Source of the DNA: Pantoea sp. alder81
GTDB lineage: Bacteria > Pseudomonadota > Gammaproteobacteria > Enterobacterales > Enterobacteriaceae
NCBI RefSeq assembly: GCF_020179835.1
Contig: NZ_JAIUDA010000001.1
Span: forward strand, 1-64,000
Reading direction: 5' to 3'
DNA length: 64,000 nucleotides
This document shows positions 1-13,425 of this stretch, piece by piece; position 1 is the stretch's first letter, and every line of letters begins with the position of its first letter. Below the pieces are notes generated by a model. The model was not told where the DNA came from, did no database searches, and saw only the letters and a program-made list of their open reading frames with translations. Made by a program: the position numbers and the translations under genes.

Positions 1-108
1 CTGCGAAATTCAGGGGAATGCTGTTTACGGGGCTTTTTGCTGGTTGATACTGTTTTTGTCATGTGAGTCACCTCTGGTTGAGAGTTTACTCACTTAGTCT
101 CGTGTCCA
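1..108 (-). mobile_element. Left-over end of an IS3-family insertion sequence, running off the window
   Basis: An ATG at 62-60 on the minus strand opens a reading frame that begins MTKTVSTSKKPRKQHSPEFR and runs off the left edge. I recognise this as the start of an OrfA (helix-turn-helix) protein of IS3-family transposases. A good ribosome binding site (GAGGT) lies about 8 bases upstream of the ATG. The element seems to end near position 108, where the minus strand reads TGGACACGAG, because the restriction gene to the right loses its family resemblance there. The exact IS name and the terminal repeat cannot be fixed from one end. Confidence 0.75.
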
Positions 109-2588
109 CTATTCGCGGGTAGGATCATTTGCCTGACTTTGTTCTTCTGACCTGCTGGGATTGGTGCTCGGAAATCTCTTGGCTCTTCATCATTGGCAAA
201 ATTGAAGGTTGTCGGCTTCAGTACATCAAATCCCTGAGTAATGCTACCCACGTAGTCTGTTGGCGTAGTCCACATGTGCTGTTTAATTTGCGACCAAATA
301 AATTCAGCCAAAATACGACCTCCCGACTTAAGAACTCCTTCCGTATCAACATCACTTAAATAGCTTTTTAAGTGCGCAACCATTTGACCAGATAGCTTAT
401 ACAGCATTCCTGCATGCTCATCGTAATCAATCTCGTCGTGATCCATGAGATAGAATACCAGATAATTTTCTAAGCGTTCCTCTGAAACAACAACATTCTC
501 CCAGCTAATCGTGCTGATCTGGCTTGTTTCTAAATTGCTAATAAGGATTTCATTTGACTGTGGTTTTAGAGAGATATGCTCCAGACCTATAAGGTCAAAA
601 TCATTAAAACCATAGTTAACATCGCGTGTAGGAAGGACCACGATTTTCGGGATATCTATGGTAAATTCAGCAATCGTCTCTGTAACCGTAGAAACAATCT
701 CATCAACGGAGACTGAATCAAACATTTCAGCTTGCTCTGTTGCTTGCCCGACTGAGTTAGTATACCCCTCTGCCACTTTGTTATCGTTATCAATATTTAG
801 AACAAACAATTCCTTAGCGACTTGGTGAACACGTTGCGCAATATGTTGCTTAACCTGCTCACTTGTTAGTTGTTTACTACTTTCGAGATTTTTGGCTTCT
901 TGCTGAACAATGGCAACAGTAAGCTCAGCGATTTTCTTTTGTGCTGGCGTATATTCTTTAGTTTGTACATTATTACTTGAACTACAGTTCTCAACTTGGC
1001 TCGAACCACTAACATCATAAGTGGCTTGCCGATCTCCTACTGAGCTGTTGTCTATATATACAGGTTTATTGCCTAAAGCGTAGTCCACCATTGAAGGTAC
1101 AAAAATCTGCTTTGGCTTTTTCTCCGGAATGTCATTTTCCTCGCCAGGGCCAATATAAAGTGTCTTTTTGATGATGGACTCTTTGTCATTTGCCTGATCA
1201 ATGATCTCTTGGAAGCGATCGTGTGCAATGATTGTCAATCGATCAACAGCCTCAACTTTTGTTCGCTTTCCATAAGGTAAACGAAGCCCTCGGCCAATGG
1301 TTTGCTCAGTCAAAATCTCAGACGCAGAGGCACGGAGGGGCACTATGGTATAGAGGTTGGTAACATCCCATCCCTCTTTTAGTTTGTTAACATGAATAAC
1401 AATTTCAGTATCTTTGTCATGCTCTACAGATAGCAGACGCTGAGTTGTTTCCTCTGACTCTTCTCCAGTTTGGTTAGAGTGAATAGTTATGACTTTGCCT
1501 GTGTAAGCACCTTCAAAAAATGAATCTGCCTCAATTTTTTTCTTTAATGATTCTGCATGTGATGTGTCTTGTGCAACAACCAGCATAAACGGCTTAATAA
1601 GCTTCTCGCCTGTGTTATTTGCATAACTGGCTAACTCTGTCTTCACATACTCATGGTGATGAATACCATCTTCCAGCTTAATTTCTTCCAAGCGTTCATG
1701 TGAATAATCACTAGGCTTAAACTCTTTACGTGTCGCAACAGCTGGAGTTTTAACATAACCATCATTCAGAGCACTTGCTAATGGATAATGGTAAATAATA
1801 TTTGTGAACTCCTGCTGCTTTGATCCAACATGTTTTGGAGTAGCTGTTAGCTCAATACCCAATACTGGCTTAAGGTCATCTAGTGCTTTTGCTCCTGCAG
1901 AGGCATAGTAGCGGTGAGCCTCATCCATGATAACGACAAGATCAGGCAAATCAGCTAAGTAGTTAAAGTATGAATCACCAATATATTCTTGCAAACGACG
2001 CATTTTAGGGTCATTAGATTTGTTCGCACCAATCTTATTGTCTTTAGCATTTATTTTCGAAATATTAAATATGTTGATATGCGGGGCATCTTCCCCTACA
2101 AATAAATCACCGGTCATCGTTTCAGCAACGGCATAATCCAAACGTACACCGCGACCATCTTCATAATCATCACCAGTGATGATAATTGGTGGTGTTTGAA
2201 CGAGTTCAGGAATCCCTTGGAACACATACTTCGGGCTTCCCATCAAGAAATCTTTTTTAAGTTTCTCATAAATCGTTAAGTTTGGCGCGAGAACGAAAAA
2301 ATGCCTACTGCGCCCGGTAAGATACAACCAAGTAATCATAGCTCCCATTAGGCGCGTTTTACCCACGCCCGTAGCCAGCGCAAAGCACAGTGAAGGAAAA
2401 GCGCGTTCAAACTTTTTCACTGATGGATAATGAGGCTTCAAAATTTCAATCCAACGGTTCAGATCAGCATCTTTGCTTAATCCCATTTGTTCAAGAACAT
2501 CACACAAAATTTGTAGTGATTTTTCTTGTGGATTGCGAAGAGAAAGCCGAGCACTAATTTGATTAGCTATTTTTACATCATTGCTCAT
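90..2588 (-). pseudogene. Type III-like restriction helicase (Res), 3' end cut off by the IS
   Basis: Superfamily 2 DNA helicase of the type III restriction subunit kind; with a Mod partner such proteins translocate on and cleave unmodified DNA. Visible motifs are Walker A (ATGVGKT, about residues 72-78), the DEAH box in VIMDEAHRYYA, the following ELTATPK, and the motif VI region TIGRGLRLPYG. The frame is 832 codons, but the last seven or so (NSGHETK) are read from the IS end. Res proteins of this type normally continue for over 100 residues with a PD-(D/E)xK nuclease domain, which is absent here, so the product should lack cleavage activity. The start lies 3 bases after the end of the methyltransferase frame. 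Last gene of a minus-strand operon. Confidence 0.8.
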
Positions 2589-2591
2589 TGA

Positions 2592-4229
2592 TTACACTTC
2601 CTCTTCATCGTCGTAAAGTTCAGCATCACCTTCAGCTAATACATTCAAAGTAAAACTGTAATCGTCATTATCCCATTCACATTTATTTAAAATTGATTGA
2701 GGGATTTTCTTAATCGTTAAGTTCGGGAATTCAACGCCTTCACTCATAAAAGCTTTACAGCAAATTAGTAGTGTGCGCTCCTCACCGACCTCTTCACTAA
2801 TACGCTTAAGTTAGTCATACGCAAGAGCACCAGTCGTGACATAAATAAAGTCGGTCTCTGTGCTGAAACCATGATTCCAGAATTGGGTTTCACTTGGTGC
2901 ATACATAAAGCCCATGTGTTTACACATAGCAGCAGAAAGCATCTCTGCGTTGTACTCTTTGTTGATAACCCAGTTACCCCATTCATCTTTCTGGAGAAGG
3001 GACGGAGCTAAGCGTAAGTAACGGAAACTACCACCACCTTGCCAGTTGACTGACTTGGAGATACCACCTTGGTCCGTACCATCAATTACTTTTTTAAGGC
3101 GAGGAACGATGTGAGTTTCACAATGATCACCTAATTCCACCATGATCCAACGACGGCCTATTTTTTGAGCTACCGCACCGGTAGTACCGGAACCGGCAAA
3201 TGAGTCCAATACGAGATCACCGGGGTTAGTGGCGATAGTTAATATACGCTGTATTAAACGCTCTGGCTTTGGCGTATCAAATATATCTTGACGCCCAAAT
3301 AGCTGAATTATTTCTTTTTTTGCTTCATCGGTATGTCCCACTTCGTCATGAGGCCACCAGTTATGTGGCGTCATACCATCACGAACCTCTGATAAAAAAA
3401 GCTTCACCGCTGGTGTAGAATTGGTTCCATTTACTCCCCACCAAATACGACTTTCTTCAACATGTCTTCGGTGAGTTTCTCGATCATATTTCCAAGCTTT
3501 CTTTGTGTTTTTGATTATTTCACCGGTATTAGGGTTTGTGATGTCGTAACACAAGTTGGGACGTTTTTCAGGTGTGGCTTGGTTAAGATAATCTACTGAC
3601 TTCCAAGGTCCTCTAGGATCATTATCTGGATTTTTATATCTAGCAATTGAGTCTGCAGTACGAGGTAGCAAGTTGTTAACAAATTTATCCGATTTTCTAT
3701 AAACAAGAATTCTGTCACAGATTGAAGCTATACCTTTAAAATTGTTACTTACACTGTATTTTCTCTGCCAAGTAATATCAGTAACAAAGTTTGATCGTCC
3801 AAAGATCTCATCACATATTATTTTTAAATAGTGCGACTCATTGTCATCAATAGTGATCCATAGTGAACCATCTTCAGATAGCAGTTGATGAAGTAGAACT
3901 AATCTATCACGTATCAATGTAAGCCACATTGAGTGCTCTAATCCGTCATCGTAATGTGAAAAGGCACTACCTGTATTATAAGGAGGATCAATTAATATAC
4001 ATTTAACTTTACCGGTATAGTCTTGCTCTAGTGCTTTGAGAGCTAACAAGTTATCAGACTTAATCAGTAAGTTATCAAAAATATGCTCATCGCCTTTATC
4101 AATATCTGCTGGAATATTGGCATGCGAGTATTGTTGATTTTCCAAAAAAATACGAGGTTCAAGTCTAGGTAACTTCTCTTTACCAATCCAGTTAAGCTCT
4201 AGTCTATTACCTTTACAATTAATCATCAC
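2592..4229 (-). pseudogene. Type III-like DNA adenine methyltransferase (Mod), one in-frame TAA
   Basis: Site-specific DNA methyltransferase of the beta class: the catalytic motif DPPYNTG (about residue 83) precedes the cofactor-binding motif DSFAGSGTTG (about residue 345), with target recognition between. It should methylate adenine and pair with the Res protein downstream. The frame is open for 472 codons, meets TAA at 2811-2813 after ALAYD, and then stays open as LKRISEEVGEE to a second stop at 2592-2594, 3 bases before the res start. The uninterrupted length would be 545, usual for the family, so the first stop looks like a point mutation. The 472-residue product keeps all catalytic motifs and could still be active; only the Res-contacting C-terminus would be lost. 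Confidence 0.8.
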
Positions 4230-4251
4230 ATATACCTTAATAACTCGCAGC

Positions 4252-5013
4252 TTAATAGCTACTACTGAAATTTTTATTCCCGATCATTTCAAGAGCGATC
4301 AGTTCTAGGAAATCTTTTGTTTGAAGGCCATCTTTGATATAGATAACTCTGAAATTACTTTCACCCTGTTTCAACGTCTCACCTTTTTCATCCCAAGCTT
4401 TGTGGCTAGACATTATTTCAGCCGTTGCACCGCCCAAGATATACAGGTCTACCTCTCCATTTTTTATAAGTTGCATTCCTTCAGAGCGTCGGTAAAAACT
4501 TTCTTTATAATTATCCTTATACCTTTTCAAATGAAACATTGGGCGAATATAAAATTCCTTCTCCGTTTCAAAATTGCCTTTTTCTTTAGACTGATAGGCA
4601 CCTAAAATATGCCAATCATTTATTAATCCTTGTAAAGACTTCTTGATGCAAATAGATGAGCGAACTTCAACTATTGCTTGGTTAAAATCTGAAGCTAAGC
4701 TAATGTCGAATTTATCTGCATGCTCAAAATTATCATCTCTAACCTCATCTTAGCTTTCAACCTTAATCGGAAAATTATGCTTTCTGAAATAAGTTCTTAG
4801 CAATCTAGTACACGAAATGTCCGCAAGAGCACCAAGGAAATTTTGACTAATCCTTTCATTTTCATCTCTTATCCGTCCGGCTGGATCACCCTCTCTAACA
4901 TATTTGGCTTTTTTCTCTGCGATAATCTGAGCCTGGCTTATTATCTCAGGAGCACCTAAGATATCGACCTTCAATATATTCCAACTGGCTACATTGACTT
5001 CGTCATATTTCAT
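4252..5013 (-). pseudogene. Small unknown protein of the restriction operon, possibly a nuclease, one in-frame TAA
   Basis: I do not recognise the family. The start chosen is MKYDEV at 5013, whose ATG overlaps the stop of the SNF2 gene (ATGA). The frame stops at TAA 4750-4752 (codon 88) but codon-by-codon reading shows no other stop until 4252, giving 253 positions in all. The second half contains FDISLASDFNQAIVEVR followed by a Lys-rich stretch. A spaced D then E-x-R after a helix with a conserved-looking Glu (RDENERISQNF) is the sort of pattern seen in PD-(D/E)xK nucleases; that is a guess. Its place between SNF2 and Mod in a coupled operon argues for a role in the same system. Confidence 0.6.
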
Positions 5014-7835
5014 TTTTTCGCCACGCCCCACGTTGCCTCAAAAACTGTCTTAACTTGGGTTTCTATCACCAGTTTTTCTTCTATTTTTTCTAGTAACTTG
5101 TCTTCTTCTTGTTCAATGATTTTTTTCTCTTCATGGTAGTTGAGCATCACTTGATCTCTTTCCCGCTCAAGTGATTTAAGCGAACGTTTAGCCGCCATTT
5201 TCTCTTGCAATGTACCGAGCTGTCGAGATGCTTTTCTCGCATGTTTTATTTCTTGGTCTAACTGTTTAATACGGATATCTAAAGCAATTCTCTTATCTTC
5301 AGCCCAGCGCTCTAACTTCTCAACTTCGTCTGCATAATACTGCTCATTATCATGCTCCACTTCACTGATAAATACTTGAACCTGTTGGTTTGTATGATTA
5401 TCTAAGTTGGCCCAAAACTCTGTAGTTTGAACTTTTTCATGCGCAGCAATTGGCAGTTGTAGCATCCGTTCGACAGTTTCAGGATGGATAATCTCACCAG
5501 TATCGGTTATCGCCGCAAGAATTAGCCGCTCACGTTTTTCTTCACTCGATCCAATGCTGACTTTCGTCATGCGCAAGATGCCATTTTGAGAAATTAAGTT
5601 CCTTACATCAGCCCAGTGGATATCTTCTAGCTGGTAAACAAAAGGCAAATGGGTACTCACAAGTCTATCGACTTTGTAGCGTTCTAATAGTTCCAGCCCC
5701 AAGCCTTCAGATACACGAAACAAGTTGTGGTCATGCTGTACTGCATGATGCCAATCCAGTGAGTAGAATGTTCCTCCTACGTTAAAACCATGTTCAGTCA
5801 CGACAAATGAACAATCTGACGCAAATGCCATATTGGCCAGTAACAGTAATCTCTTCTGATACTGAGATAATTGGGTCGTTACTATATTGCGACGTGTATT
5901 TAAACGTTCAACAACATCCGCGTCAAAATTCTCCAATAGAGAACGCCGTGTATCATTGACCTTTACTTCAAGCTGTTCTTTTAACTGCTCTTGTAACTGA
6001 TTAAATTCGTGCTCAATTTGGTCATCGCTTCTGCAGTTCTGGTAGATATCATGTATTCTTCTCTCGATATCTACCCCTGACTCAATTGATCCTAGAATTT
6101 CATCTGATGCTCCAAAAACCCCTTCAAACAAAAGAAACTTTTGACTAAGTAACTCAAAGACTCGCTCATCCGCGCGATTACCCTTGTTAATGAAATTAAC
6201 TACAACAACATCATGCTTTTGACCATAGCGGTGAATACGTCCTATCCGTTGTTCTACACGTTGTGGATTCCATGGTAAGTCGTAGTTCACGAGTAGCGAA
6301 CAAAATTGTAAGTTAATACCTTCTGCCCCCGCTTCGGTACAAATCATCAAGATGGCTTCTTCTTTGAATTTATCGACCAAAGCAGCCTTCATATCGGCGG
6401 TTTTGGAGCCAGATATTCTTGTTGAACCTTGATGTTTTTCTAACCACTCTTTGTAAATAGCTTTCGAGGTAGCGTCGTTATTACTTCCGTTTAATAAGAC
6501 GATCTGACTATTATATCCATTGATTACAAGAAACTCCGCCAACCAACTTTGAGTCCTAACAGATTCAGTGAAAATAACCGCTTTTCTGCTTCCGCCTAAC
6601 TCAGTCGTCTTATCAAACGCTCTTGTCAATACACGAAGTAAAGCCTCTGCTTTAGCATTACCACTGATTTTAGCTGCAAGTTCTTTAAACGAACGTAGCA
6701 ATTCAATTTCAGCACTTAACGCAACTGGATCAATATCTTCATCATCTACTGCATCTTCATCTTGATAATCATTTAAGCTGTCAAGATCTTGTAAAGCTTC
6801 GATGAGAGGTAACTTTTGCTCTAACCGATTAATCATGGTTTCAAGCGTACCCAACATCGCGTATGAAGATGAAGCAAGTATTTTGCGAATCACCAGTGTG
6901 ACTAAATGTCTCGCACCGGATTTGATAGAGAGAAGATCTCCTCGCTGCAAGTACTCAGATACCTCTGCATAAAGCTGTTCTTCTTCTTTCGAAGGACGAA
7001 AGTCTTCAGTCATGGAATAACGACGAGTAAAACTGACACCCCCCTCTTCTTGAACTTGTCGACGCAATGTACGATTACAAACTTTGCTCAGCCTTGAACG
7101 CAAAAGTGCCAACTCAATTTCATCCAAATTTTGCCGACCATATCTTGCTTTAAAGGAGTTTAGATCACCAAAAAAGTGTGGGTCTAGAATCGAAACTAGC
7201 CCATAAAGCTCTAATATGCTGTTTTGTAATGGAGTGGCAGAGAGCATCACTTTTTTTCGACCTTTTAATGCGAGTTCTAACTTTTTCGCCGTTTTTGCGC
7301 CATCTGTTTTGTAGATATTACGAAGCCTATGTGCCTCATCTAACACAACCAGATCCCAATGAACTTGGGTTAACTCGTCTTCCTTTCGAGCAGCAAATTC
7401 GTAAGAACAAATACAAATGGCAGGTTTACCAGTGCTTATTTCCACATCAAACGGATTAGCAATTCCACTCCTGATTGCTGAACTAAAAGTGGTGGCTTCA
7501 AGGATCGCAGACGGTAGCGAGAATTTGTCTTCAAGCTCTTGGCCCCACTGCTTTCTCAAAGTAGCAGGTACAATTAATAGTAGTTTTCGCTTGCGCTCTG
7601 CCCATTTCTGAGCAAGGACCAAGCTAGCTTCGATTGTTTTTCCCAACCCAACTTCATCTGCCAAGATGACTCCACTAGACAGCAGCGAAGACAAAGCAAA
7701 CAATGCCGCCTCGACCTGATGTGGGTTCATGTCAACTTTTGAATTAGCGATGGTCTGAGTCATTAACTCTTCTGCTTTTCCAGCAAGTGTCAGAGAATGA
7801 GCTACCCAAGCTTTTTGATGGTCCGAAAAATACAC
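5010..7835 (-). CDS. SNF2/RapA-like DNA helicase of a defence operon
   Basis: Swi2/Snf2-type double-stranded DNA translocase, 941 residues. N-terminal ATPase lobe with Walker A (DEVGLGKT, about residue 61), the DEAH box in LVVLDEAHRLRN and SATPLQNS. The C-terminal helicase lobe has AGAEGINLQFCS, then the arginine-finger motif QRIGRIHRYGQ. The last 120 residues are a highly charged coiled coil rich in Glu, Lys and Arg. Nearest common relatives are RapA and the SNF2 proteins of defence islands (for example DrmD of DISARM), but no drmA or drmB lies nearby. The start codon is GTG, with AAGG upstream. First gene of the minus-strand operon, coupled by ATGA to the next one, and the only intact gene of the four. 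Confidence 0.85.
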   Translation of the reverse strand: MYFSDHQKAWVAHSLTLAGKAEELMTQTIANSKVDMNPHQVEAALFALSSLLSSGVILADEVGLGKTIEASLVLAQKWAERKRKLLLIVPATLRKQWGQELEDKFSLPSAILEATTFSSAIRSGIANPFDVEISTGKPAICICSYEFAARKEDELTQVHWDLVVLDEAHRLRNIYKTDGAKTAKKLELALKGRKKVMLSATPLQNSILELYGLVSILDPHFFGDLNSFKARYGRQNLDEIELALLRSRLSKVCNRTLRRQVQEEGGVSFTRRYSMTEDFRPSKEEEQLYAEVSEYLQRGDLLSIKSGARHLVTLVIRKILASSSYAMLGTLETMINRLEQKLPLIEALQDLDSLNDYQDEDAVDDEDIDPVALSAEIELLRSFKELAAKISGNAKAEALLRVLTRAFDKTTELGGSRKAVIFTESVRTQSWLAEFLVINGYNSQIVLLNGSNNDATSKAIYKEWLEKHQGSTRISGSKTADMKAALVDKFKEEAILMICTEAGAEGINLQFCSLLVNYDLPWNPQRVEQRIGRIHRYGQKHDVVVVNFINKGNRADERVFELLSQKFLLFEGVFGASDEILGSIESGVDIERRIHDIYQNCRSDDQIEHEFNQLQEQLKEQLEVKVNDTRRSLLENFDADVVERLNTRRNIVTTQLSQYQKRLLLLANMAFASDCSFVVTEHGFNVGGTFYSLDWHHAVQHDHNLFRVSEGLGLELLERYKVDRLVSTHLPFVYQLEDIHWADVRNLISQNGILRMTKVSIGSSEEKRERLILAAITDTGEIIHPETVERMLQLPIAAHEKVQTTEFWANLDNHTNQQVQVFISEVEHDNEQYYADEVEKLERWAEDKRIALDIRIKQLDQEIKHARKASRQLGTLQEKMAAKRSLKSLERERDQVMLNYHEEKKIIEQEEDKLLEKIEEKLVIETQVKTVFEATWGVAKK

Positions 7836-7933
7836 TTAAGACAACCTTAAAATAATCAATATAAACATATGCTTATTCTTTAATTGTGATCGATATTTTG
7901 TTTTTTAACACTCAATTCACAGCTTAAGATCTC

Positions 7934-7988
7934 TGGACTGCCCCCACCGTGGTAGAAGATCCTGCCCTATAGTTGTGGGGGCTGTCCA
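7934..7988. repeat. Near-perfect 14-bp inverted repeat in the SNF2 upstream region
   Basis: TGGACTGCCCCCAC at 7934-7947 is matched by its reverse complement at 7975-7988 (13 of 14 positions), enclosing 27 bases. The ends look like transposon termini, but 55 bp is too small for an ordinary insertion sequence. It could be a tiny MITE, the scar of an element, or a terminator for the gmrSD transcript. It lies between the two minus-strand genes gmrSD and SNF2. The rest of the 258-bp gap shows no gene. Confidence 0.5.
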
Positions 7989-8093
7989 CCGTAAAGACAG
8001 AAAATGTCTACCTGAATGGGGCACTCAAACGCAATGTTGCTTACTACGGTGAGTCGTTGCATACATGTCATATTGGAAGGTGCCCGGTGCGAA

Positions 8094-9893
8094 TTAGCTT
8101 TGACTCAAAGCCTTTCCCATGGCTTTTTCTATCAGTCCAAGTAACTCTTTTTGTCTCTGCTCGTAGAATGCTTCAAAATCATCGGCACGTAGGGGGGCTA
8201 CTGGGATGTGGTGGCTTCTCAAGAGATCATTCATCGCGACATCATCTAGCTGCACTTGGGGGTGCGATTGTAACGACGCTAGGTAAACTGATGGGGCAGA
8301 ACCGCCAATCATTCTGTTTGCCTTATATGAAATTGGTGTTTTATTAATGATCGAGTCGTATTGACGTCTTGGTATTCCGTTCTTCTCGCACCAATCTTTC
8401 GGGAAAATATGATGAATATCAACTGGAACTTCGTCGGTCTCAAGACTACGAATTCTCGCTTTCCAGAAAAGATCCTGAGCACCATCGCGTAAGACGAGAA
8501 CGTTTATGCCTTTATAGGCCGCACTCAACCGGGATGCTAGTGAGTCAAGACGATCAATCTGGAAATTCGCATCGTTAATAGTGCGAGGAAGATCACCGTT
8601 ACTTTCAATCCACGCAAGTAGTTCTTCAACATCATTAGCAATACGCGTTTCTACTGCACCACCGTATAGTTCACCCAATACACCACACCAAAACCACCTG
8701 GCTAGCTTCTGATGAATTTGTGGTTCTCTCCAACGTTCTTCATCTTTGTTGCAAATAATGGTCATGACTGCTGCTAGAGGTGCAACTTGAGTTCGATAAG
8801 GTAATTCTCGCTGAGAACTAAAACGTTCTTGGCGAAGAAACTTGGCTGCGTAATTGAAACCATTCTCTACCACCTCAGCCCAGTTTTTGTAAGCGTTTAA
8901 AGGTAGCTCAAGGACAGAGGCTCGTTTTGCACTAACTGGTGATACTTGTTTACCTGTTTTTCCTGCTGCTATATCAGCTTTCCGTTTCTCCAGAGTATGC
9001 AGCATGGTGATGGCCTGTAGAAAATCCGTGCTTTCAATGCCATTCAGAATCACTTCTTCGGAAATTCTTTCTTTGCGCGAGGTAATATTTCTAATTTCAC
9101 TGCCATACCAGTCATCACGAAGATTGTAGCCATCAGCTGCATAGCTTGCGGTAACAAGCTCAAATACAGACAGTGGTACGCCACCAGTATTTACCTTTTC
9201 GAATACGAGGCATACAGCTTCTTTGGTGGTATCTTTTTTCAGAATAATCAAGGGAATTTGATAATCGTTATAAGCATCCAGCACCTGCGTTTTGAATTCA
9301 AAGAAATGTGGTACAGCCAAAGCATTGTGGGTGTAGAGATCTTGTAACCAAGCCATAGCTTCGAGGATTTCCGAACATGGGAAATAAAGCTGCTGGCATT
9401 CGAGTTCTCGGGTGGAAAGATCGAGATCAACCTTTCGACCAAAATCACTGCGTATTTGACGATTACCATCAGTTGCAATAATTGCGTCATCCAGCCTGTC
9501 TGGTCCCGCAAGAGCTGTGGGTATATGAATATAGTAATAGCGATCGATAGGTTTTCCCTTATCAGTCGTTGTTTTTACTGGACCCTGAAGTCTTAGCACT
9601 TGAGTTAATGTTGTTAACCGCTGCTGTCCATCTAAGATTAGTTTTTCTGGTGACGACAACCTAGGCAAGGGAACATTTTCAATCGGCCGGACTTGAAAAC
9701 GTACTTCACCTCCAGTTTCCAGAAGCATAACTGCCCCTACAGGGAATGAGCGGCCAAGGCTGACGAGTAAGCTACGAACATGCTCATCGTCCCATACCCA
9801 ACCTCTTTGAAAATCTGGTAACTGGATTTTCCCTTCAACGATATCTTTAAGAAGGTCTTTAAGCGGAAGCTTAGTACTATCAAACGTCGACAT
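8094..9893 (-). CDS. GmrSD-type restriction protein (DUF262 plus HNH domain)
   Basis: Probable type IV-like, modification-dependent defence protein with both GmrS-like and GmrD-like parts in one chain. The N-terminal DUF262 (ParB-like NTPase) domain shows IQLPDFQRGWVWD and the signature ILDGQQRLTTL (about residues 84-94). Near the C-terminus, VDIHHIFPKDW followed by a distal INKTPISYKANR has the pattern of an HNH/DUF1524 nuclease with its metal His pair. Family members such as GmrSD of E. coli and BrxU cut glucosylated or methylated phage DNA; the substrate here is unknown. The start at 9893 is preferred over 9935 because AAGGATG lies just upstream. Length 599, no break seen. Same strand as the SNF2 operon but separated by 258 bp. 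Confidence 0.85.
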   Translation of the reverse strand: MSTFDSTKLPLKDLLKDIVEGKIQLPDFQRGWVWDDEHVRSLLVSLGRSFPVGAVMLLETGGEVRFQVRPIENVPLPRLSSPEKLILDGQQRLTTLTQVLRLQGPVKTTTDKGKPIDRYYYIHIPTALAGPDRLDDAIIATDGNRQIRSDFGRKVDLDLSTRELECQQLYFPCSEILEAMAWLQDLYTHNALAVPHFFEFKTQVLDAYNDYQIPLIILKKDTTKEAVCLVFEKVNTGGVPLSVFELVTASYAADGYNLRDDWYGSEIRNITSRKERISEEVILNGIESTDFLQAITMLHTLEKRKADIAAGKTGKQVSPVSAKRASVLELPLNAYKNWAEVVENGFNYAAKFLRQERFSSQRELPYRTQVAPLAAVMTIICNKDEERWREPQIHQKLARWFWCGVLGELYGGAVETRIANDVEELLAWIESNGDLPRTINDANFQIDRLDSLASRLSAAYKGINVLVLRDGAQDLFWKARIRSLETDEVPVDIHHIFPKDWCEKNGIPRRQYDSIINKTPISYKANRMIGGSAPSVYLASLQSHPQVQLDDVAMNDLLRSHHIPVAPLRADDFEAFYEQRQKELLGLIEKAMGKALSQS

Positions 9894-9935
9894 TTTCACA
9901 TCCTTGCGCAGTAACAATTGTTCAAAACTATACAA

Positions 9936-10403
9936 CGATGATGGATTTTTTACATTGCTCCTGGCAGGAGAATGAGATGTTTGGGCTACGAAGTACTTTA
10001 AAAGAGCACTGCTTTCGTTAGGATTTGCAACCCCAGACAGAGTAGTAATTTGTTACAAGTCCTACTAGAAAAAGAAATCTCACTATAGTTCACCTGCAGC
10101 AACGTATTCACTGTACGGATGTATATTGGTTTATAACTATTTTCAGAACTAAATCATTTTCGTGAGCAGCAGATATTCTCTTTCTGACAATGCGGAATGC
10201 GACAGGTTGTGTCGTTTTACTGATGATGACCTCGCTTTGTAATCAACTAATTACCTTATGTTTCATTGCGTTAGATGGTTTCATTTACCCCCACCATTTT
10301 TTCATTTCACCACCCTTTAGTACGACATAACGTGTCGAACCAGTACGTCATAATCACCCATATTAATATCTGGTTATTTTGGGAGTTCAGGACTGTTCTC
10401 ACC
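9936..10403. promoter_or_regulatory. Divergent promoter region between gmrSD and the WYL regulator
   Basis: No gene seen. It holds two copies of the palindrome CGACA-N5-TGTCG, at 10200-10214 and 10323-10337. The second sits just upstream of a CATAAT (10349-10354) that could be the -10 element of the regulator gene, so a protein bound there would cover the -35 region. The obvious candidate protein is the regulator encoded next door. The upstream in-frame ATG at 10275 would put both the second palindrome and the CATAAT inside the gene, so the shorter start at 10404 is preferred. Confidence 0.5.
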
Positions 10404-11087
10404 ATGAAAATACAACATGATCATTATGACCGCCTGTCTGTCAGGTTATCGGTCATTATCAGCCGGTTACTGGCTGGCCAATCCCTGGAGCTCAAAGCGC
10501 TGGCAAATGAGTTTGGTGTCTCAGAGCGCACACTACAGCGGGATTTTCAGCAGCGTCTAATCCATCTGGATCTTGAACATTCCAGTGGCTGTTATCGACT
10601 TATCCGGCGAGCCGGTCGAGAGCACTTACCCAATACCTTTGCGTTTATCCTCAACTCTGGCATTTCGGGGATCATTCCGGCTCAGAACCGCAGACTCATC
10701 CGGTTGATTACCAGCAGCTCTGGTGGCTCTCCATGCCTTATCGGGCATGGAGGGCTGCCATCACCAATCACCCAGACCACCTGCTTTCTGGAGCTGGCCG
10801 AAGCTATCCGTGACTACCGGGCCGTTACGCTATTAGTCAATGGTAAGAGCTACGAAGGAGTGACTCCTCGCCGCCTGATCTTTCAGTCAAGAAATTGGTT
10901 TCTTGTAGCTACTCGGGCGAGAAAGCTACAGGTGTTTCAGATGGAAGACGTTAAGGCTGTAACTGTTCTTGACACCTCTTTTTGCAGAAAGCCTGAACTT
11001 GATGCACTCACCGCCAGTGAGGAGTTTATTTCGGCTCTTCCACACTTTCGTTTCATCAGTGACGTTATTCAGACCTTCAGAGAGTAA
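10404..11087 (+). CDS. WYL-domain transcription regulator of a defence/CP4-like island
   Basis: DNA-binding regulator, 227 residues from the chosen ATG. The N-terminal helix-turn-helix reads ALANEFGVSERTLQRDF (about residues 32-48), of the DeoR-like type. The C-terminal part (VTPRRLIFQSRNWFLVATR) matches the WYL ligand-sensing domain, in which the signature is degenerate (WFL). Such proteins usually act as autorepressors of defence islands and respond to nucleic acid or nucleotide signals. The upstream palindromes at 10200 and 10323 are candidate sites. It sits before a GTPase gene, the order seen in E. coli CP4-type prophage islands. Confidence 0.75.
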   Translation: MKIQHDHYDRLSVRLSVIISRLLAGQSLELKALANEFGVSERTLQRDFQQRLIHLDLEHSSGCYRLIRRAGREHLPNTFAFILNSGISGIIPAQNRRLIRLITSSSGGSPCLIGHGGLPSPITQTTCFLELAEAIRDYRAVTLLVNGKSYEGVTPRRLIFQSRNWFLVATRARKLQVFQMEDVKAVTVLDTSFCRKPELDALTASEEFISALPHFRFISDVIQTFRE

Positions 11088-11125
11088 CTGGCAACGTTCA
11101 TTTCAACATAAGCAAGGAGACCTTT

Positions 11126-11673
11126 ATGGATGACCCGGTGAAGGGCGAAAGCCGGATGATTACTGATGCCAATGGCATCACCAGAAGAGAAGGGGGGATT
11201 TCAGGAATATGGGGAAATATGTTTAATGAGAACAATGGGATAAAAGCCGACAGCCCGCCGCTCATACCTGACATCAGGGATATTCTCGATGTTTTCCCTC
11301 AGTCGCTGCGGGAAAGCCTGGTTAACAAAATCAGTGAAGCTAACGACTATGAACCTGTTATTGGTGTTATGGGAAAGACCGGCGCAGGTAAATCAAGCGT
11401 GTGTAATGCGCTATTCTAGGGCGAAGTGTGTGCGGTCAGTGACGTTGAAGCCTGTACGCGTGAGGCCCGAGAACTGCGCATACGCTTCGGCAAACGATCG
11501 CTGAAGATCATTGATATTCCTGGTGTCGGTGAGAATGCTTTACGGGATAAAGAGTACGAAGGTCTTTACCGTACTTTGCTTCCCTCACTGGATCTCATCC
11601 TCTGGGTGATAAAAGGCGATGATCGAGCTTTTTCTGCAGATGAGCATTTCTACAATAATGTCCTGCTCCCTGC
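11126..11673 (+). pseudogene. YfjP-like island GTPase, broken by a TAG and truncated
   Basis: Fragment of a TRAFAC GTPase of the YfjP/YeeP type found in E. coli CP4 islands. The G1 motif GKTGAGKSS lies about residue 87 and G3 as DIPGVGE further on. The frame starts well (AAGGAGA before ATG 11126) but stops at TAG 11417-11419 directly after the G1 region. The family usually has Gln in that position (NALFQGE), so CAG to TAG is likely. The frame then continues from GEVCAVSDVEAC to about 11,673, where similarity ends at VLLPA and another gene remnant begins in a different frame. The C-terminal half of the GTPase is gone. Not expected to be functional. Confidence 0.75.
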
Positions 11674-12012
11674 AGCTTCGGTAAGAAGATCATCATTAAC
11701 AATTCGGTGACGCATAACCGCTGGGGCTTTAGCCTTAACTGGGGTTGGCGGCGGGATCAGTTGGCAGACTTGGAGCGAATGCTGTTTCTGCTGGATGGCA
11801 GACCCATCCCTGACAACCGGGGTGATATCTCCACTCGGTTGATGGAGCATATCCGGGATAATCCGGCTAAGGACGTTTACGAAGATGAGTTCTTCAGCAT
11901 TCGTTACTATCAAAAAGGCACAGCGCACTTGGCCTTCAAGCGTCTGGAGTTGATTGAGCGAATGAATGACATCATTGCTAAACACTTTCCGGGAATGCTG
12001 GCTGCGCGGTAA
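11674..12012 (+). pseudogene. C-terminal remnant of a DUF4942 island protein
   Basis: The frame reading SFGKKIIINNSVTHN and then RWGFSLNWGW, RRDQLADLERMLFLLDG and ELIERMNDIIAKHFPGML is the C-terminal part of DUF4942-type proteins, which accompany YfjP-type GTPases on CP4-like islands. There is no start codon or ribosome binding site of its own, and it is joined directly to the GTPase remnant, so a deletion has fused two neighbouring genes out of frame. Identification rests on recalled family sequence. The N-terminal part is missing and function is unlikely. Confidence 0.65.
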
Positions 12013-12017
12013 GTTTG

Positions 12018-12061
12018 GTGTCGTATGTTTGCTGTTAAAAGTGTCGTATATTTGCTATGAT
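12018..12061 (+). promoter_or_regulatory. Two direct repeats at the promoter of the AbiE-like pair
   Basis: GTGTCGTATGTTTGCT (12018-12033) is repeated with one change as GTGTCGTATATTTGCT (12041-12056), 23 bases apart start to start. TATGAT at 12056-12061 is a plausible -10 element, so the second repeat fills the spacer. AbiEi-type antitoxins repress their own promoters, and the repeats are likely operator sites. Both repeats contain TGTCG, the half-site of the palindromes at 10200 and 10323. Confidence 0.5.
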
Positions 12062-12086
12062 GAAGAAACGACCAAAGGAGGTTGGC

Positions 12087-12482
12087 ATGACCATAAAAGC
12101 TCGTATTCAGTCACGGCTGAAACGCTCAAAGCGTTATGTTTTCACTCGTGACGATTTCAAAGATCTTGCTGGTTACGATCAAATTGGCAGAGCACTGCGT
12201 GAACTGGTGAAGGAAGGGCAGTTGCTGAAAGTAGGCTATGGCATCTACACCAAAGCGCGGCAAAATGCGATTACCGGTAAGCTGATGCCTGCTGCTCCCG
12301 GAGGTTCTGCTGCGGTAATGATTGAGGCGTTGGAACGTCTGAAAGTGGATTACCGTCTGGCAGGAGCAACAAGTGCCTACAACAGTGGTAAATCTACCCA
12401 GATCCCCGCGTCACTTGAAATCAAAACCTCACCACGTTTTAAGAGAACATTGTCAGTAGGGAGCAGCAAGCTAAATGGATGA
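12087..12482 (+). CDS. AbiEi-like antitoxin (DUF6088 family)
   Basis: Probable antitoxin and autorepressor, 131 residues. The N-terminal winged helix-turn-helix reads VFTRDDFKDLAGYDQIGRAL, followed by ELVKEGQLLKVGYGIYTK, the wing typical of AbiEi/DUF6088 proteins. The start at ATG 12087 is chosen because AAAGGAGG lies 7 bases upstream; an earlier in-frame ATG at 12057 overlaps the putative -10 and has no such site. Its last 8 bases overlap the toxin gene, so the two are translated as a coupled pair. Confidence 0.8.
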   Translation: MTIKARIQSRLKRSKRYVFTRDDFKDLAGYDQIGRALRELVKEGQLLKVGYGIYTKARQNAITGKLMPAAPGGSAAVMIEALERLKVDYRLAGATSAYNSGKSTQIPASLEIKTSPRFKRTLSVGSSKLNG

Positions 12483-13425
12483 TTTAAGAAAGCTATTCCC
12501 GGACGTTGCCGATGCCCTGGGCATTGAATCAGTTGCAATTGTAGAGAAAGATCATTACATCGTTGAGTTATTGCGATTGCTCCAGCCTCTGTCCTTTGAT
12601 ACACATCTGCTGGTTTTTGCCGGTGGAACAGCATTATCAAAAGCGGGTATATCTTTGAACAGGATGTCGGAGGACGTGGACATTAAGCTTGTTCCTGTCG
12701 CCGGTTTTTCCCAGCAATATTCCAGAGGTCAGCGTAAAAGTATCCGTAAGGGTATTATTCAGACCATTATCGAAACGATTGCCGCCTCAGGTACGTTTCG
12801 CATGGATGAAGAGTATCCAAAGGTTACTCGTGATGAATACCGTTATAATGAAATTCCAATGCGTTACCCGCAGAAATATTCACAAGCTCCTTGCTTAAGA
12901 CCATTTATCAAACTGGAACTGATGGAAACGGATTTGCTTGAGGCTGCGGAAAACCGTGCTATTAGCTCCTTGGTAATGGATCTAACAAAAAAGGGCGAAG
13001 CAGTGAGGGCTTTCCCTTGCGCAACGATCGGCAGCACGCAGGCTGAAAAACTGATTTCGATGATGCGCAGAACGGCTGCAAGTATGCGTGATGTGGAACG
13101 TGTAGTGGATGAATCACTGGTTCGTCATATTTACGACAATTTTTGTATTGTTAGAGAAAAAGGTGCTGATGTTCCTGTTTTAAAGCAATTCGTGCAGGAA
13201 TGCATTGAGCAGGATATTGAACGTTACGGTGCCCAGTATCCTGAATTCTGCGAGTCGCCTGTTGAAGAACTAAAAATGGGGTTGGAAGAACTTGAGAGCA
13301 ATCCTGTTTATAAAGAACGCTATCTGCAGTTCGTCACACCAATGGTGTTCGGTGAAAGCCACGTTTCATGGGAAGATGCCTATATCTGCTTCCGCAAAAC
13401 GGCATTAGATGTGTTAAAAGCATAG
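12475..13425 (+). CDS. AbiEii-like nucleotidyltransferase toxin
   Basis: Toxin of a type IV-like toxin-antitoxin pair, 316 residues, in the AbiEii/AbiGii (DUF1814) group. The nucleotidyltransferase core is visible as VFAGGTALSKAG (about residues 43-54) followed by RMSEDVDIKL, giving the GG(T/S)-x9-DxD pattern that binds nucleotide and metal. Members add nucleotides to tRNA 3' ends or otherwise block growth, giving abortive infection. The frame is intact, unlike most of the island around it, which fits selection against loss of the pair. A short unremarkable stretch follows before the probable island boundary. Confidence 0.85.
   Translation: MDDLRKLFPDVADALGIESVAIVEKDHYIVELLRLLQPLSFDTHLLVFAGGTALSKAGISLNRMSEDVDIKLVPVAGFSQQYSRGQRKSIRKGIIQTIIETIAASGTFRMDEEYPKVTRDEYRYNEIPMRYPQKYSQAPCLRPFIKLELMETDLLEAAENRAISSLVMDLTKKGEAVRAFPCATIGSTQAEKLISMMRRTAASMRDVERVVDESLVRHIYDNFCIVREKGADVPVLKQFVQECIEQDIERYGAQYPEFCESPVEELKMGLEELESNPVYKERYLQFVTPMVFGESHVSWEDAYICFRKTALDVLKA

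Follow-up and report, generated by a model that had tools for sequence, protein, structure and literature searches.

The window analysed here, a stretch of 64,000 nucleotides from Pantoea sp. alder81 (contig NZ_JAIUDA010000001.1, positions 1 to 64,000), opens with a minus-strand operon that has decayed and probably once encoded a three-subunit system related to type III restriction-modification (R-M), in which a RapA-like SNF2 ATPase is the third core subunit and accessory genes are exchangeable. The gene order is SNF2 (5010–7835, 941 amino acids, intact), a small frame of 253 codons (4252–5013), the frame of a type III N6/N4 methylase, Mod (2592–4229), and the type III restriction helicase Res, present in the window as its helicase part alone (90–2588). 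SNF2 contains the Pfam domains SNF2-rel_dom and Helicase_C with motifs GLGKT, DEAH and GRIHR; Mod corresponds to N6_N4_Mtase and Res to ResIII. A preliminary description of this DNA had reported four coupled genes on the minus strand, with an ATGA overlap and a gap of three bases between Mod and Res; these features proved correct, the overlap joining SNF2 to the small frame and the three bases (2591–2589) separating the Mod frame from the ATG of Res. The description did not mention that the copy is broken: the small frame and Mod each contain an in-frame TAA codon, and Res is most likely cut by an insertion sequence (IS) element.

The grouping of SNF2, Mod and Res is not due to chance, and the conserved unit consists of three genes. 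A profile search of genome contigs with SNF2 identified at least 559 relatives among at least 592 candidate stretches, and the best 80, all chromosomal loci, were sorted with profiles for three Mod/Res subtypes (the window belongs to subtype A). SNF2, Mod and Res follow in this order on one strand in 45 of the 80 loci (24 of subtype A, 5 of B and 16 of C), which span 13 phylum-level groups according to record titles. Counted among these 45 are L077 and L079, in which the SNF2 frame is broken, L081 and L018, in which that of Res is, and L037, with just the first 88 Res codons on the contig. Among the other 35 are two loci with Mod and Res before SNF2, 10 contigs ending soon after Mod, one Mod fragment alone and 10 contigs ending within 1.3 kb of SNF2. 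The earlier suspicion of a recurrent operon of restriction type is thus borne out. The idea of a four-gene family fares less well: the core of three genes recurs, but the small gene is a variable occupant, and the set of four was seen in none of the examined loci.

A second, independent set of 398 genomes from the window's phylum contained 22 SNF2 places in 21 genomes, 14 of them with complete cores; the remaining eight are the broken window operon, four cuts by contig ends, two SNF2 fragments and one Res without a clear Mod. The reverse search of the same sample with Res detected 20 places in 20 genomes: SNF2 lies on the same contig in 11, one place is split over two contigs and six are cut by contig ends. 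Moreover, 23 of 25 plasmid records with a window-type Res also carry SNF2, the two exceptions being partial matches; since Salmonella plasmids that are almost identical to one another make up 15 of the 23, there are fewer independent cases. Traced on the SNF2 tree, the subtype of Mod and Res switches nine times, which suggests that the motor swapped partners, yet remained with type III pairs. A search of E. coli genomes at megablast sensitivity turned up no relative of the operon, the IS end excepted.

Several related layouts were seen along the way. Loci L062 and L064 are permuted: Mod and Res-size genes come before SNF2, on the strand that it also occupies. L150 has a subtype-A Mod and Res with Fic between them (7278–12883, plus strand) and no SNF2; its upstream gene encodes a class I tRNA synthetase. 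On the Klebsiella grimontii plasmid p5512.56-2-CTXM14, from a human isolate (L180), genes for SNF2, a methylase of 1046 amino acids and a helicase of 550 are lined up. SNF2 of this type occurs, among the matches listed, in 14 records (11 from Klebsiella and one each from Escherichia, Citrobacter and Raoultella).

The best PADLOC model is type III MTase for Mod (624 bits), which has both DPPY and FAGSG motifs, and type III REase for Res (1147 bits); representatives of all three subtypes match the type III models with both proteins. The catalogue therefore already covers two members of the three-gene core. In profile searches against PDB, the best solved relatives of Mod were 6k0w, whose record is named adenine-specific DNA methyltransferase, and EcoP15I Mod (144 bits). 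The best match of Res was EcoP15I Res, a weak one (38 bits over 55 positions, 379–433). A PD-(D/E)xK-like motif, PDF...ExK, is present in Res of L006, L104 and L008. Type III enzymes are textbook two-subunit restriction machines, whose cleavage depends on ATP and requires two inversely oriented sites, and in which Res needs Mod. On two Aeromonas plasmids, L006 and L178, the same operon has Mod broken by different IS elements next to a full-length Res, a situation that would be tolerable if Res here likewise needs Mod.

For SNF2, the best PADLOC model is DrmD (656 bits); it also matches BrxHI/BrxHII (243 bits) and HmaA (154 bits) and has a cross-match to DrmA (121 bits). Against NCBIfam it scored 648 bits with DrmD_b (NF038318; cut-off 950) and 171 bits with RapA (cut-off 576), and so reaches the threshold of neither. 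An AlphaFold model built from 39 sequences (predicted local distance difference test score, pLDDT, 82; predicted template modelling score, pTM, 0.74) had RapA as its first Foldseek matches. VIA-align superimposed the model on RapA over 732 residues within 3–940 (8t0l; Z 20.9, root-mean-square deviation 4.3) and over 728 residues within 3–941 (8so8; Z 21.6, root-mean-square deviation 8.4). Judged by this model, SNF2 is RapA-like nearly end to end. Both programs also returned many chromatin remodellers that match the motor core; these indicate just the identity of a Swi2/Snf2 motor.

The window copy of the operon most likely no longer works. The small frame contains an in-frame TAA at 4750–4752. 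In Mod, a TAA at 2811–2813 follows 472 codons, within a stretch conserved in relatives, and beyond it the frame continues with conserved sequence that is open, for example, in Mod of a same-genus relative. Homology of Res stops at about residue 817 (near window position 120). When the genome itself was searched with the Aeromonas Res, residues 1–817 were found in the window and residues 812–948 on another contig, C13; the detached piece retains the nuclease motif (PDFVVET...LLMEPK), which the window piece lacks. The start of the window coincides with a contig end and holds the end of an IS3-family element (1–120): positions 64–134 match IS3-family elements, and positions 89–127 have an inverted match to the end of C13 (79% over 39 bases). 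Together, the C13 nuclease piece, the IS3 match and the inverted match between contig ends suggest that Res was most likely split by an IS3-type element. The sole complete core gene in the window is SNF2, which has kept its motifs. With Res cut and nonsense codons in both Mod and the small gene, this copy has most likely lost both restriction and methylation.

The positions between the core genes form a variable slot. At least one gene lies there in 40 of 65 operons, a set made up of 67 operons minus L172 and L173 (the same records as L040 and L085, respectively) and L165 (its one Mod match is doubtful), plus the window. The 40 include the window and L174, where the single frame in the slot, of 107 codons, may belong to SNF2 as a fragment. 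With the window left out, a slot gene is found between SNF2 and Mod in 36 of 64 operons and between Mod and Res in 13. Representative occupants are AAA_21 with DUF4276, AIPR, Abi_2, Schlafen AlbA_2, SIR2 and RhuM, and further Fic, GmrSD-HNH, a protein kinase, Bro-N and SMC-like ATPases; the Pfam names derive from a scan of 34 slot proteins, eight of which belong to loci not among the 65, and other members were named by blastp cluster. Slot labels, counted on the 64 operons without the window, change 31 times on the SNF2 tree (minimum 17), and shuffled labels change 37.2 times on average, with none of 200 shuffles as low as 31. The AAA label alone accounts for eight changes in eight rows. Exchange is visible even within the window's own clade: the window has the small gene, whereas among its nearest relatives L006 has an AAA/DUF4276 pair, L160 and L161 have Schlafen, and L104, from the same genus, has an AAA ATPase together with an S8 protease, with matches below cut-off to IetA (262 of the required 510 bits) and IetS (155 of 900). 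The slot, then, often swaps unrelated genes, and the small protein is one of its occupants. Occupants without a family model are likely defence genes in view of their position. In L171, a 231-residue protein without a Pfam match is encoded between Mod and Res (7577–8272, minus strand); its RNALAH stretch fits the HEPN motif RxxxxH.

The small protein itself belongs to an R-M-linked family that has no model in the libraries searched. It has a relative between Mod and Res in Flavobacterium (L025) and another in Virgibacillus (L097). In the archaeon Methanomethylovorans (L099), the relative is encoded between a helicase–DUF4391 pair and Mod-Res, and the helicase matches the SNF2 profile weakly (118 bits). 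On Methanocaldococcus and Thermococcus plasmids (L096, L098) relatives adjoin methylase genes, that of Thermococcus being of Eco57I/MmeI type. The Methanomethylovorans member also matches plasmids of Campylobacter coli and Lactococcus lactis. Six aligned members share an invariant R, a G, an E-x-R-S-S motif and other residues. The 398-genome sample gave two matches (the window's own and a weak one over 83 residues), a 299-genome phylum sample only the window's own, and a search of viral contigs none. The protein had been described as nuclease-like, a label that we cannot sustain, as neither Pfam, PADLOC, NCBIfam nor PDB gave a useful match, a PDB profile search with the family was null and the predicted fold had a pLDDT of 40. 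At a guess, a conserved D...ExR stretch might form a PD-(D/E)xK core; we make no such claim.

How well does the proposed three-subunit system account for these observations? A number of them weigh against it. Twelve of the 80 loci have an SNF2 relative with neither Mod nor Res downstream (although in one of these, L072, Mod is weakly matched upstream), and two of the 20 Res places lack SNF2 despite room for it, so that the tie between motor and type III pair is not absolute. Near the window the operon is rare, SNF2 being present in one of 35 other genomes of the genus and in three of 59 other relatives. The tree shows stronger clustering of slot labels than shuffling would produce, which means that exchange is frequent, not free. 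The TM-scores of the SNF2 model with RapA in Foldseek are moderate (0.40–0.54 by query length), and in VIA-align nearly all non-RapA matches cover chiefly the motor, some with a slightly higher Z than RapA. Finally, folding the small protein from the intact Flavobacterium homolog and from the two window pieces produced no usable structure. A rival explanation is an ordinary type III R-M system in a defence island, to which SNF2 and the slot genes are independent neighbours by chance. Mod and Res by themselves match the type III models of PADLOC, the window also contains GmrSD, WYL and AbiE-like genes, and the two Res places without SNF2 still hold slot-type genes (Bro-N, Fic). We nevertheless regard chance neighbours as unlikely, given 45 loci in 13 phylum-level groups with the same order and strand, the presence of SNF2 in 23 of 25 plasmid records when Res is the starting point, and a motor that stays while three Mod/Res subtypes change.

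The SNF2 gene could instead mark a reduced or divergent DISARM system, with SNF2 as DrmD and Mod as DrmMI, and in both PADLOC and NCBIfam the best model of SNF2 is indeed DrmD, with a methylase gene beside it. This explanation is already largely refuted and hardly tenable: the NCBIfam score is far under the cut-off, and the operon has a type III Mod, with its match to the EcoP15I structure, and Res instead of DrmMI and DrmABC. Among PADLOC matches listed for the seven window proteins of 90–11087 (for Mod the best 25 of 56 families, for SNF2 the best 25 of 44), DrmB and DrmC were not found, and the sole DrmA signal is the cross-match of SNF2. DISARM membership was accordingly rejected, in agreement with the preliminary description. 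When its proposed catalogue check was made in PADLOC, Mod and Res turned out to be covered as type III MTase and REase, and SNF2 to be closest to DrmD without passing the NCBIfam cut-off. A different possibility is that SNF2 is the effector or sensor of a system of its own, like BrxHII or ArmA, for which the type III pair merely supplies the self mark. The BrxHI/BrxHII model does match SNF2, and extracts of two papers describe BREX and ARMADA as pairing a RapA-like helicase with a methylase (PMC12839542, PMC12458937). Res, however, keeps its helicase motifs and, in the relatives looked at, the PD-(D/E)xK-like motif, which indicates that the operon has its own nuclease, and we consider an SNF2 effector rather improbable.

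Similarity to Hma also had to be considered. In the parts of the source consulted, Hma is a widespread combination of an SNF2-type helicase, a methylase and a third ATPase, with other defence genes embedded (PMC11411939), and HmaB is a 5-methylcytosine (m5C) methylase (Payne 2021, PMC8565338, likewise in extract). The present operon resembles Hma with its embedded candidates (HEC) in having an SNF2-type helicase gene beside a methylase gene and defence genes between. In contrast to HmaB, its Mod has PF01555 (N6_N4) as the sole Pfam match; HmaC is not among the nine PADLOC families that match Res, and SNF2 scores 154 bits with HmaA versus 656 with DrmD. Hma membership was rejected on the grounds that Mod is not of the m5C type and Res has no HmaC match. 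Hma with embedded defence candidates was reportedly the subject of Payne 2024.

Embedding as such has precedents. Excerpts of the literature place PrrC within a type I operon, where it guards its type I enzyme (PMC3710099, PMC3506569); AIPR was noted in R-M operons in 2008 and tied to type III R-M in 2012, and RhuM, DOC and Abi2 were reported there in 2013 (PMC3506569, PMC3710099, PMC2292703); TgvAB, embedded in a Vibrio cholerae type I operon, followed in 2024 (PMC11411939). These operons share with ours second-line or complementary genes inside the operon, and the families AIPR, Abi2, RhuM, Fic/DOC and GmrSD. They differ in that the excerpts describe no fixed SNF2–slot–Mod–Res layout with frequent exchange. 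The principle is therefore already known from R-M and Hma operons. A full-text literature search found the layout named nowhere; Gao 2020, Payne 2024 and the DefenseFinder models lay outside its coverage and may name it. We thus regard the SNF2–type III layout with a slot as a new variant, and the embedding principle as published. Compared with EcoP15I, the operon shares an N6_N4 Mod, a Res with an SF2 helicase and a C-terminal PDF...ExK, and adjacent mod and res genes, whereas here most of the members seen have a gene for a RapA-like SNF2 in front, and the core is often interrupted by accessory genes.

How the three-subunit system might work can be outlined from homology and gene order, from which its activities, the role of SNF2 and any guarding relation are deduced. 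Mod would methylate self DNA at its site, most likely on adenine, and together with Res would recognise and cut unmethylated foreign DNA, as in EcoP15I. SNF2, as the third core subunit, would most likely move on duplex DNA, and might clear bound proteins or RNA polymerase, probe DNA, or license the Mod–Res complex. By analogy with PrrC and TgvAB, slot genes most likely act beside the restriction core or form a second line that the core restrains. In the window, an IS element most likely cut Res, and two nonsense codons break Mod and the slot gene. As a more tentative extension, for which we see a less than even chance, the RapA-like SNF2 could be the obligate third subunit of a large unnamed type III branch, and the operon a docking site that swaps complete second-line modules (IetAS-like, AAA/DUF4276, AIPR, SIR2, Schlafen and the new ExRSS family, which occurs in bacteria and archaea alike) and puts the restriction core in charge of them. 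If most members of a branch carry a RapA-like motor, the contribution of an SNF2 translocase to restriction could be studied directly there, and the slot is a ready list of candidate defence genes.

The surroundings of the operon have features of an island. Upstream of SNF2, on the same strand and after a gap of 258 bases, lies a gene for a GmrSD_N (DUF262) protein (8094–9935, minus strand; PADLOC PDC-M55C 92 bits, HEC-05 60 bits), which perhaps is a member of the operon unit or else an independent neighbour. The G+C content of the operon genes is 36–41%, compared with 52% for the window, which would fit horizontal arrival. A divergent gene (10275–11087, plus strand) encodes a WYL/helix-turn-helix regulator with 93% identity over 226 amino acids to the regulator adjoining the operon of the same-genus relative. 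At the DNA level, window positions 10070–10953 are 90.6% identical to positions 12063–12946 of that relative, L104, and the SNF2 proteins of the two loci are 66% identical, which suggests a common island site with differing versions of the operon. Farther along the plus strand, three short frames (11126–12012) with a GKS and then a DIPG motif resemble a single GTPase gene split by frame changes, which we take to be YeeP/YfjP-like. They are followed at 12057–13425, also on the plus strand, by adjacent genes for an AbiEi-like protein (DUF6088/AbiEi_4) and AbiEii, another defence or toxin–antitoxin pair of the same island.

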